Origin: Nitrospira lenta
GTDB taxonomy: Bacteria; Nitrospirota; Nitrospiria; Nitrospirales; Nitrospiraceae
Direction of reading: 5' to 3'
DNA: 64,000 bases
Assembly: GCF_900403705.1 (NCBI RefSeq)
Contig: NZ_OUNR01000012.1
Location: 496,001 to 560,000 of the forward strand
The first letter of the stretch is position 1. Each line of letters starts with the position of its first letter. Positions 23,960 through 29,184 of the stretch are shown one piece after another. The position numbers and the translations under genes were made by a program. The notes under the pieces were generated by a model, which saw only the letters and a program-made list of their open reading frames with translations, made no database searches and was not told the DNA's origin.

Positions 23960-24062
23960 GAGGCGCCGCGCGGTCTTGATGAGTGTCGCAACATCGTCAC
24001 GCCGGCATTCTAACGAATGGTCCGGAGACCGTCAAACGAGGGCCGTGGCATAGCCTCACCGG

Positions 24063-25745
24063 TCATTCGACCGTGATGCGGCGATCGACATAGGAGGCAA
24101 CCGCCGGATCGGTGGTCGCGAAGATAACCGACCAGGGTTCGTCCTGGGCGCACAGCCGACGCAAAATCGTTTCGCGCAGGGAGGGATTCATGTTGTGCAG
24201 GGTGCCGTCGATGATCAGGACCTGCGGCCGGATGACAATGGCGCGGGCGAGCAGGAGGCACAGCGTCTGGCTCAACGTGAATTGATCGCGGTGGCCCGTC
24301 ACGTGCGTGGCCAGGCCGTCCGAAAAGTGTTCGATCTCTTCGTCGAGTCCCACGAAACGGAGCGCCCACAGAATATCGTTATGGGAAATGGCGGGGCGGC
24401 CCAGCGTTAGATTGTCCTCGATCGTCCCTTCGAGCAGCGTGGGCAGCGAGTCCAGCATCAAGCTGCGATAGGGATCGATCGACTCCAGGCTCACTTCGAC
24501 CAGATTGATATCGTTGTACCTCACCACGCCGCCGGTGGGCGGGAGCAGACCGGCCAGGACCTTGGCCACGGCGGTTTTTTGCACGTTAGACCGGCAGAGC
24601 AGGGCGATCTTTTCCCCGGCGACTACGTCCAAATTCAGATGCTCGAACAGTGGGGTCGCATTCGGATGGGCGAAGGAAAGATTGCGCGCGATGACCGAGA
24701 TTCCTTCCCACCCGAAGTGTCCTGCCGGGACAGTGGCCTTGGCGCCGGGCTCGTCCTGGGGCAGCGAAAAAAAGGCGTTCATTTCCCGGAAGGCTACGAA
24801 GGCGAAGAACATGTGCACCATGCGGCGCGCCAGCGTGTCCATGCTCAGGAGGAGTAAGCCTGCTTGCAATTCCGCGGCGGCAAACTGGCCCACGGTCAAT
24901 TGGCCGGCCGAGACAAGTAGGCCGGCGGTGGCGATCATGCCGGTGTGGCCGGCGACTTGCCAGAACGCCGCCGCTTTGTACTGGCGGCCGGTCAGCAGGT
25001 CGGAGCGGCGCTGCCGCACGCGCACGTAGGCCTTGGTCAAGGCGTCCGTTTTCTGCATTAGGAACGGGCTGTGTCCGGCGGCACGCAGGTGAGGGAGATT
25101 GGCGGCGATATTTTGCATCCAGTGGTAGATCTCATAATTCAGCCGCGACATTTCGAGCGTGATCAGGAAGCCGCCCCGTCCGAACAGCGTGAGCAGCGCG
25201 ACGAAACCCACGATCAGCGTGACGTTGTAGAGCAGGAAATAGGGGTGGAACAAGATGAGCATCGACATGCCGATTGTGCCCACGACGGCGACGTTGAAGA
25301 GGTCGGAGATCATGGCGACCAGGGCGCGGGTCAGCAGGTCGGCTTCTATGAAGCGGTGCGCATGCTGGGGGAGAAACGAGTCTTCTTTCAGCCGCGGCAG
25401 GGTGTCGGTAAAGGCGATGGCGATTCGGGTATAGATCCGCTGCTGGAGCGTTTCGGCGCCGCGTGCTTGGACGACTCGGAAGGCCGCGGCCCCAGTCAGG
25501 GCGCAGCCCACGACGAGGGCTAGCGTGAAGATCATGGCCGGCTCGACGGCAAAGGAAAAGGTGCTGACCAACTCCTGCACAGCGATCGGCACGCAGAGCA
25601 GGAACATGCCGATTGCCACGGCATACGAAAAGAGGAGGCTGAGCATCTTCCATTCGAGGCGGATGAGCAACCCCAATTGGATGAGGATGTCGTCGAGGAT
25701 ATTGCGGAGTTGATATTGAGGAAATGCAGGGTCCGGTGTGGCCAT
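24063..25745 (-). CDS. ABC-exporter-like protein with degenerate ATPase domain, fluoride-riboswitch controlled
   Basis: 560 residues. Residues ~30-320 form an ABC type-1 exporter-like membrane domain with about five or six helices. Residues ~345-560 align with an ABC nucleotide-binding domain, but every catalytic motif is broken. Walker A is CRSNVQKT (384-391; glycines lost). The Q-loop Gln is absent (SLMLDSLPTLLEGTIEDNL). The signature LSGGQ is LSQTL (491-495). Walker B ends in IIDG (511-514; catalytic Glu to Gly). The switch His is Thr (FATTDP). The frame is intact with no stops, so this looks like a kept pseudo-ATPase rather than decay. A fluoride riboswitch lies in its leader, so a role in fluoride tolerance is inferred. 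Confidence 0.85.
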   Translation of the reverse strand: MATPDPAFPQYQLRNILDDILIQLGLLIRLEWKMLSLLFSYAVAIGMFLLCVPIAVQELVSTFSFAVEPAMIFTLALVVGCALTGAAAFRVVQARGAETLQQRIYTRIAIAFTDTLPRLKEDSFLPQHAHRFIEADLLTRALVAMISDLFNVAVVGTIGMSMLILFHPYFLLYNVTLIVGFVALLTLFGRGGFLITLEMSRLNYEIYHWMQNIAANLPHLRAAGHSPFLMQKTDALTKAYVRVRQRRSDLLTGRQYKAAAFWQVAGHTGMIATAGLLVSAGQLTVGQFAAAELQAGLLLLSMDTLARRMVHMFFAFVAFREMNAFFSLPQDEPGAKATVPAGHFGWEGISVIARNLSFAHPNATPLFEHLNLDVVAGEKIALLCRSNVQKTAVAKVLAGLLPPTGGVVRYNDINLVEVSLESIDPYRSLMLDSLPTLLEGTIEDNLTLGRPAISHNDILWALRFVGLDEEIEHFSDGLATHVTGHRDQFTLSQTLCLLLARAIVIRPQVLIIDGTLHNMNPSLRETILRRLCAQDEPWSVIFATTDPAVASYVDRRITVE

Positions 25746-25750
25746 GACGA

Positions 25751-25777
25751 CAGCTCCTACCAGAGGGTGCGTAGGAG
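25751..25777 (-). promoter_or_regulatory. Hairpin masking the ribosome site (riboswitch expression platform)
   Basis: On the minus strand CTCCTAC (25777-25771), the 3-prime end of the aptamer, can pair with GTAGGAG (25760-25754) across a 10-base loop. GTAGGAG contains the Shine-Dalgarno AGGAG, 8 bases before the ATG at 25745. Aptamer folding would hold CTCCTAC and free the ribosome site, so fluoride should switch translation on. Confidence 0.7.
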
Positions 25778-25827
25778 TTATCAGCCCGGGTGAAAACCGC
25801 AGGCGGTTCCGGTGAACCCCATCACCG
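25771..25827 (-). promoter_or_regulatory. Fluoride riboswitch (crcB motif)
   Basis: Read on the minus strand from 25826, the leader matches the conserved parts of the fluoride aptamer in order: GGTGATGGGGTTCACC, then a short linker and AAC, then a stem GCCTG/CGGGC, then TGATAACTCCTAC. These correspond to the known GGNGAUGG-NN-UUCNCC element, the AAC joint, the variable stem and the 3-prime UGAU...CUCCUAC element. Fluoride riboswitches bind one fluoride through three magnesium ions and usually control crcB/fluc or CLC-F exporters. Here the gene controlled is an ABC-like protein instead. Confidence 0.88.
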
Positions 25828-25844
25828 TCAGGAATCTCTCAATG

Positions 25845-25873
25845 CTTATATACGCCCGTCGTCCGGCCGTCAA
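25845..25873 (-). promoter_or_regulatory. Sigma-70 promoter of the fluoride-responsive gene
   Basis: Minus strand: TTGACG (25873-25868), 17-base spacer, TATAAG (25850-25845). Both hexamers match 5 of 6 consensus bases at ideal spacing. Transcription would start near 25838, about 12 bases before the aptamer, so the aptamer lies at the very start of the mRNA. Confidence 0.72.
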
Positions 25874-28489: not shown

Positions 28490-28774
28490 ATGTTTGGCTC
28501 CTTCGGCTGGATGGAATTGATGCTGATCTTGATCATCGTGTTGATCATCTTCGGCGCGGGTAAATTGCCGCAACTGGGCGAGGGACTTGGCAAAGCGATC
28601 AAGGGATTTAAAAAATCAGTGCACGAAGCCGATGCGATTGATGTGACGCCGGGCGAGCAGCCTTCGATGGCGCCACCGCAAGTGCAGGCGCATGTGATGG
28701 GCCAGCCGGAAGCGGCGCCACAGCAGCCGCAGGCCGCGCCGGTCGCGCAGCCCGGACAGACGAAGCAGGGATAA
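28490..28774 (+). CDS. tatA: Twin-arginine translocase subunit TatA/TatE
   Basis: 94 residues. A short periplasmic start (MFGSFGWMELMLIL), one membrane helix, then the hinge FGAGKLPQLGEGLGKAIKGF and an amphipathic helix, as in TatA. The C-terminal tail is Gln/Pro/Ala-rich and probably disordered. TatA forms the pore-like assembly for export of folded proteins. A second TatA-like gene follows 110 bp later; no tatC lies in the window. Confidence 0.93.
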   Translation: MFGSFGWMELMLILIIVLIIFGAGKLPQLGEGLGKAIKGFKKSVHEADAIDVTPGEQPSMAPPQVQAHVMGQPEAAPQQPQAAPVAQPGQTKQG

Positions 28775-28884: not shown

Positions 28885-29184
28885 ATGTTTGGATTAGGCG
28901 CCGGCGAAGTCTTAATTATCCTGGTGATCGCGTTTCTGTTATTTGGGCCCAAGCAGTTGCCTGAAGTCGGGCGTCAGGTCGGGAAGGCCGTCAAGGGGTT
29001 CAAGGAGACGGCCGAAGATCTGCGGAAGTCGGTGGAGCCCGAGATCAACATGATTCAGCAGGAAGTGAAGATGGTCGAGCAGGATTTCCAGGCGTCGATG
29101 AAAGAGGCGGAAGAGGAAATCAACGCAGCCGGCAAGCAGGCGGAGGACGGGGCCAAGTCCATCAGCCAGTCCGGACAGGCGTAA
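28885..29184 (+). CDS. TatA/TatB-family protein
   Basis: 99 residues. The N-terminal helix and hinge (MFGLGAGEVLIILVIAFLLF, GPKQLPEVGRQVGKAVKGFK) place it in the TatA/B family. The long charged helix that follows (Glu/Lys-rich, 60-95) is more TatB-like than in the first copy, though the N-terminus lacks the typical TatB Glu at position 8 context. It could be a TatB-type receptor subunit or a second TatA. Confidence 0.88.
   Translation: MFGLGAGEVLIILVIAFLLFGPKQLPEVGRQVGKAVKGFKETAEDLRKSVEPEINMIQQEVKMVEQDFQASMKEAEEEINAAGKQAEDGAKSISQSGQA

Follow-up and report, generated by a model that had tools for sequence, protein, structure and literature searches.

The window analysed here is a 64,000-nucleotide stretch of the Nitrospira lenta genome. 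Its minus strand carries a predicted fluoride riboswitch and, 19 nt beyond the end of the aptamer, the start codon of an intact open reading frame for a protein related to ABC exporters, which we refer to as pseudo-ABC (Table 1). The genes that follow in the window encode a glycosyltransferase, a LAB_N protein and a PMT protein. A promoter-like site before the next gene suggests that the pseudo-ABC gene is a separate unit; two consensus promoter matches were found in the region versus 0.5 expected. Because of this promoter-like site, and because a glycosyltransferase gene lies downstream in many loci irrespective of the antiporter described below, the glycosyltransferase, LAB_N and PMT genes were not counted in the unit. 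The window also holds an adjacent, ordinary pair of TatA_B_E genes, and similar pairs were seen by eye near the locus in L062, L064, L065 and L066 (L, G and C numbers denote loci, genomes and contigs, respectively).

Table 1. Features in and around the pseudo-ABC locus, in window coordinates
Feature	Position	Strand	Basis
Promoter-like element, TTGACG-17-TATAAG	25845..25873	-	by eye
Fluoride riboswitch aptamer, RF01734	25765..25835	-	cmscan; pseudoknot strands by eye
Aptamer P1, GGUG/CACC	25826-25823 / 25814-25811	-	by eye
Putative pseudoknot strands, GGGGUU / AACUCC	25820-25815 / 25779-25774	-	by eye, sequence only
Predicted expression platform, CUCCUAC (25777-25771) / GUAGGAG (25760-25754)	25754..25777	-	complementarity, fold
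Pseudo-ABC exporter, 560 aa, predicted to be under fluoride-riboswitch control	24063..25745	-	intact ORF
Promoter-like site before next gene, TTGACG-17-TAGAAT	24007..24035	-	consensus match only
TatA_B_E genes	28490-28774 and 28885-29184	+	

The fluoride aptamer and its read-out

The preliminary description of this DNA had read a promoter, a full fluoride aptamer and a hairpin masking the Shine-Dalgarno sequence before the gene, and each of these was recovered. The covariance search that it had proposed gave a match to RF01734 of 52.9 bits (E 8.2e-12), far over the gathering score of 34 and covering the model at full length (positions 1-64). This is the one fluoride aptamer found by the RF01734 search in the window's genome (G000), on contig C12. 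A chance aptamer was ruled out by this score together with the 20 conserved leaders described below, and an aptamer acting on the upstream gene was ruled out by its position: on the same strand as that gene, it comes after the gene's stop codon and is 19 nt from the start of the ABC-like gene. The promoter-like element upstream was recognized by eye, as was the same pattern in L062, L064, L065, L066, L081 and L082; it is absent from the output of the consensus promoter scan, whose rule demands a T at the end of the second hexamer.

The 3' strand of the aptamer, CUCCUAC, is complementary to GUAGGAG, located 8 nt upstream of the ATG, and the two are paired in the minimum-free-energy fold of the window leader, within which no terminator was found on the minus strand. 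GUAGGAG can serve as a Shine-Dalgarno sequence, judging from its sequence and place. The two pseudoknot strands are likewise complementary, and since AACUCC overlaps CUCCUAC, ligand binding and Shine-Dalgarno masking should be mutually exclusive, as in a translational ON switch. Without fluoride, CUCCUAC would pair with GUAGGAG and the Shine-Dalgarno sequence would be hidden; binding of Mg and fluoride would form the GGGGUU:AACUCC pseudoknot, set GUAGGAG free and turn translation on.

The preliminary description had also raised the question of whether orthologues elsewhere sit behind the same aptamer. Homologues at E 1e-20 were detected in 66 of 98 relatives. Besides the window's own genome, five of these (G025, G029, G051, G052 and G053) have orthologues at 74-88% identity, and the remaining full-length matches are paralogues at 37-47%. 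A phylum sample of 295 genomes contributed 13 more genomes with an orthologue (59-75%), 11 of them in the sister genus g16, as well as the nearest outgroup homologue, in G241 (57%). The leaders used for comparison numbered 20, namely those of the window, L062, L064 (N. moscoviensis, NZ_CP011801), L065, L066, L081, L082 and the 13 phylum-sample loci, spanning four genera by group code plus the named records. All 20, at 59% identity or more, had an above-cut-off aptamer upstream of the orthologue, and the 3' pseudoknot strand reads AACTCC or GACTCC in every one. L033/L061 (G053) and L063 were not counted for the riboswitch, the former owing to a contig end and the latter to a run of N; partial aptamer sequence is visible in the leaders of both. 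No aptamer was found, even at a lax threshold, before the contig-fragment orthologue L067 (79%) or in G241 (L107). Paralogue loci had an aptamer in none of the 30 scanned (20 + 4 + 6 loci); the first of these scans took in 20 of the 24 loci L037-L060, and L040, L048, L051 and L060, outside it, are from genomes that have no RF01734 match.

In a tree of 62 proteins, made with a quick method and with paralogues drawn from the loci in hand rather than from all phylum-sample matches, the 20 aptamer carriers all fall to the same side of a branch that has 100% SH-aLRT support. The distribution of the aptamer on this tree is explained by one change, which is to say one gain; the fragments L067 and L068 were excluded, and L067 would add one loss. 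Contig C124 of G032 has a stretch of 61 residues (1374-1556) that matches the end of the window protein at 67% identity and is closer to it than are the full-length paralogues of G032, and is perhaps the remnant of an orthologue.

The way in which the aptamer would be read out differs among these loci. GUAGGAG is found 5-8 nt upstream of the start codon in 15 of the 20 leaders, including L097, which has a U-run too. In the remaining five, those of N. moscoviensis and four relatives (L065, L066, L094 and L106), there is a terminator-like U-run before the start, and a terminator after the aptamer would take the place of Shine-Dalgarno masking. By eye, GGUAGGAG in L064, L066 and L106 could pair with the terminator's 5' arm and so act as an antiterminator. 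This pairing did not occur in the folds of L064 and L066, in which the terminator forms both when the leader is free and when the pseudoknot strands are held unpaired; that switch must therefore be kinetic, unless otherwise explained. Pseudo-ABC is the first gene after the aptamer in all 20 loci. Judging from these leaders, the read-out appears to have been rebuilt on more than one occasion, and the variation in platform around a fixed target argues for selection on the fluoride control of the pseudo-ABC gene. With its full aptamer, 5' UTR position and predicted ON-type platforms, either Shine-Dalgarno masking or a terminator, the element resembles other RF01734 riboswitches, and putative control of the pseudo-ABC gene by fluoride is well supported at the sequence level.

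A degenerate ABC exporter homologue

The product had been described at first as an ABC-exporter-like protein. This is right as far as the 560-residue, exporter-like reading frame is concerned, but the nucleotide-binding domain (NBD) has lost its catalytic motifs. The membrane domain extends approximately over residues 1-330 and the degenerate NBD over residues 345-560. Pfam at E up to 0.01 reported ABC_tran (PF00005) alone, at 30.2 bits versus a cut-off of 25, with no match to PF02537 (Fluc/CrcB) or PF00654 (CLC). Matches in the PDB include P-glycoprotein (P-gp), HlyB and ComA. The protein is like these exporters, and like TIGR03375 and CydC, in its NBD, and its similarity to ComA, which starts at residue 101, reaches into the membrane domain. 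It is unlike them in its lost motifs and in lying far below the curated subfamily cut-offs: the NCBIfam match to TIGR03375 (type I secretion permease/ATPase) scored 125.3 bits versus 693.1, and the CydC-like similarity is also far short of its cut-off. A hydropathy scan marked only some of the six expected transmembrane segments, and an AlphaFold model from the seven-sequence alignment A1 was unusable (mean pLDDT 42.7). We infer the membrane fold, and a dimer, from the sequence.

Each of the motifs needed for hydrolysis is altered, and not in the window protein alone. The Walker A sequence of P-gp, GNSGCGKST, aligns with CRSNVQKTA of the window protein; the first and second glycines are found in none of the 62 family rows, window included, and the third in seven, all outside the riboswitch clade (copies in L108, L109, L110 and L112). 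The signature LSGGQ aligns with FTLSQ, the glycine pair occurring at the aligned place in none of the 62 rows and a single glycine in one (L051). Walker B LLLDE aligns with LIIDG, and the catalytic Glu is replaced by Gly in 62 of 62. At the place of the H-loop His, which was set by extending the P-gp alignment that ends just before it, there is Asn in 42 rows, Thr in 19, among them the window protein, and Gln in one, and His in none. A loose motif pattern flagged three rows, none of them at the aligned place; VSGGE precedes the aligned signature by a few residues in L100 and L105, and L107 has a Walker-A-like string within the membrane domain. With the Walker A glycines, the signature pair, the Walker B Glu and the H-loop His all lost, the protein probably does not hydrolyse ATP. 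All the relatives examined show decayed ATPase motifs, which makes a conventional pump powered by ATP unlikely. Of Walker A, the Lys survives in 61 of the 62 rows, so the protein may still bind nucleotides.

The protein itself is kept. Between the window gene and eight orthologues, dN/dS was 0.06-0.13 for the membrane domain and 0.12-0.33 for the NBD, which evolves faster, and values as low as 0.03 were found among the other pairs; those from the several pairs with dS above 1 are rough. Values of 0.03-0.33 across both domains indicate a working protein under purifying selection and, with the open frames, rule out a pseudogene. The pseudo-ABC gene is thus predicted to encode a maintained protein with the membrane-domain-plus-NBD layout of an ABC exporter, in which ATP hydrolysis would probably be impossible and the rest preserved by selection. 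Among the paralogues, the L037 (G015) reading frame is interrupted once by a stop codon within the membrane domain, which reflects either a broken gene or an assembly error.

Loss of the catalytic Glu and of signature and H-loop residues is shared with TAP, TmrAB, CFTR and Pdr5, and a single degenerate site is common among ABC exporters, according to the portions of PMC7756269 available. Pseudo-ABC could accordingly be half of an ATP-dependent exporter whose other half, a canonical ABC half-transporter, is encoded at another locus. Together they would move a stress-related substrate, such as a lipid or a peptide, that is needed under fluoride or acid stress. The conserved Walker A Lys, which may still allow nucleotide binding, would fit such a pairing, as would the tandem pseudo-ABC gene pairs present at six sister-genus loci (L108-L113), which are possible heterodimers in their own right; at least one copy in each of L108, L109, L110 and L112 has the Walker A GK. 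However, TAP, TmrAB, CFTR and Pdr5 keep one canonical site, whereas the single NBD of the pseudo-ABC half-transporter is degenerate in every motif. With the Walker A glycines, the signature pair and the catalytic Glu gone, both composite sites of a heterodimer would suffer; degeneration extends to all 62 homologues checked, and no canonical ABC partner was seen by eye in the neighbourhood. We therefore regard an ATP-dependent pairing of this kind as improbable.

Neighbouring genes and other fluoride-aptamer loci

In five loci (L061, L062, L065, L081 and L094) the pseudo-ABC gene is directly followed by genes for a Na_H_Exchanger-type antiporter, assigned by Pfam in L062 and L065, and a UspA protein. 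The antiporter is split in two pieces in L102, where UspA is retained, and reduced to a 59-residue remnant in L082; none was found beside the pseudo-ABC gene in the window stretch, L063, L064, L066, L095-L101 or L103-L106. Antiporters are the commonest targets of fluoride riboswitches after exporters (PMC11139923) and, like uspA, known fluoride-regulon genes (PMC11139923, PMC5533749), as far as the accessible text of these sources goes. The aptamer might then have been selected for the antiporter-UspA pair, the ABC-like gene merely lying in between. This would suit the five loci where the antiporter gene comes next. However, 16 of the 20 loci have a broken antiporter or none that could be found, and all 20 have an intact ABC-like gene in first place; this gene is under purifying selection, and in 15 leaders the putatively masked Shine-Dalgarno sequence is its own. 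A mere passenger is, in our judgement, very unlikely.

A functional link to these neighbours deserves more weight. Pseudo-ABC could be a fluoride-induced accessory protein that transports no fluoride itself and supports pH or ion homeostasis or the envelope, for example by partnering the Na+/H+ antiporter, or an HlyD/TolC-like assembly, in an ATP-insensitive manner. Its recurrent proximity to the antiporter and UspA genes speaks for this, as do the gene order antiporter-UspA-ABC in G241, which has no aptamer, and the finding that 12 of the 30 fluoride-aptamer loci examined have an antiporter as the gene driven by the aptamer. So do the paralogues: those of the window's genome and of N. moscoviensis adjoin HlyD, OEP and 4HB-sensor-like genes, which suggests that the family originated in a tripartite exporter. 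Against it, pseudo-ABC is the only gene under the switch in the window and in N. moscoviensis, and no such antiporter was found anywhere in either genome at E 1e-10. Nor was an HlyD or OEP gene recognized beside the riboswitch-controlled copies, by eye and with Pfam on some of the neighbours. An accessory role is a real if somewhat doubtful possibility.

Several gene arrangements around these loci merit description in their own right. The riboswitch-free paralogues in L077 and L078, and by eye in L079 and L080, lie with HlyD and outer-membrane efflux genes; L077 and L078 additionally have a four-helix-bundle sensor-like protein. These sets resemble tripartite systems whose ATPase is apparently inactive. 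In L095, L096, L098, L099, L101, L103 and L104 a gene for an apparently membrane-bound protein of 242-252 residues immediately precedes the riboswitch, in the same orientation but not controlled by it; the L095 copy has no Pfam match. Seven of the 30 fluoride-aptamer loci (L016, L017, L020, L027, L028, L029 and L030) have, downstream of the aptamer, a gene whose small product combines a hydrophobic stretch at the N terminus with RIGGQAGQPYDH-like repeats. No Pfam match was obtained for the copies in L020 and L028, and these proteins could make up a second family of the fluoride regulon, possibly an undescribed one. The aptamer of this gene in L029 and L030 lies about 130-160 bp from a divergent aptamer that drives an antiporter.

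The known fluoride exporters are scarce in genomes that carry the pseudo-ABC gene. Of the 20 carrier genomes tested, with those of L063, L065 and L066 outside the search, 19 had no Fluc (PF02537) and all 20 had no CLC (PF00654). By group, Fluc was found in one of six carriers within the genus and CLC in none, and neither was found in the 14 carriers of other genera, G241 included, in which the positive controls matched in 10 and 12 of the 14 genomes. The single Fluc carrier is the window's own genome, with one Fluc gene on contig C21 that has no riboswitch. The association within the genus is weak (one of six carriers vs 34 of 53 non-carriers; Fisher p 0.036, uncorrected for descent). Moreover, Fluc is present in six of 20 in-genus genomes with any fluoride riboswitch vs 29 of 39 without (p 0.0018); riboswitch genomes in general thus tend to be without Fluc, and its scarcity is not special to the pseudo-ABC gene.

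A possible role in fluoride tolerance

Membership of the predicted fluoride regulon is well supported at the sequence level, which makes a part for pseudo-ABC in coping with fluoride likely. Our favoured reading, held tentatively, places an ABC-exporter homologue devoid of catalytic activity under a fluoride-ON riboswitch and gives it a part in the fluoride tolerance of the Nitrospiraceae. The protein would act without turning over ATP; its most likely form is a dimeric pathway across the membrane, powered by ion gradients or the membrane potential, along which fluoride might leave as F- or together with H+ from cells that are mostly without Fluc and CLC. We infer both the independence from ATP and the movement of fluoride.

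Among the ABC proteins named above, CFTR is an anion channel. A precedent can be derived from LmrA, whose membrane domains without the NBD carry out proton-coupled chloride transport; the transport of chloride driven by delta-pH requires E314 of TM6, according to the parts of PMC2704374 available. LmrA differs in being an ATP-dependent exporter, and the substrate in the same text was not fluoride. Pseudo-ABC has an acid, E292, where TM6 is expected (22 of 22 proteins of the riboswitch clade and 30 of 40 others), and can be likened to E314 by expected region only; no anion-binding site was identified in the protein. In its boldest form, the proposal would add a third class to the fluoride exporters. 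An ABC exporter would have given up ATP hydrolysis, turned into a path for fluoride, gradient-driven or passive, that replaces Fluc/CLC-F in Nitrospiraceae, and been kept under a riboswitch with an apparently rebuilt read-out. We consider this version rather unlikely.

The riboswitch itself is already known; what is new, within the open-access literature searched and the portions of it available, is pseudo-ABC as its conserved target. The RF01734 targets named there are Fluc, CLC-F, enolase, pyrophosphatase, uspA and the antiporter, whereas here an ABC-exporter homologue would be controlled. The fluoride operon of Enterobacter cloacae FRM is alike in having a fluoride riboswitch before several genes including uspA, and differs in that crcB is present and an ABC gene absent, according to the available part of PMC5533749. 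Pseudo-ABC was not found as a fluoride-riboswitch target in the titles or abstract beginnings of the open-access matches listed, nor in the accessible portions of PMC8071458, PMC11139923, PMC9495176, PMC7266159, PMC2864571, PMC11477304, PMC5770649 and PMC7756269; Baker et al. (2012), the primary list of targets, may contain an earlier mention of an ABC gene. The word-start term 'ABC' had no matches in the available text of PMC11139923 and PMC9495176.

Identifying fluoride as a riboswitch ligand uncovered fluoride-resistance proteins, as recounted in part of PMC7266159. Pseudo-ABC, as a conserved target outside both the known exporters and the enzymes that fluoride inhibits, offers a candidate for a new tolerance protein that can be tested directly. 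As an ABC clade with decayed catalytic motifs and a preserved protein, the family should be useful for asking what ABC membrane domains do without ATP. Its hosts are environmentally central nitrifiers, mostly without Fluc and CLC in this sample, and pseudo-ABC may represent a new way of surviving fluoride.
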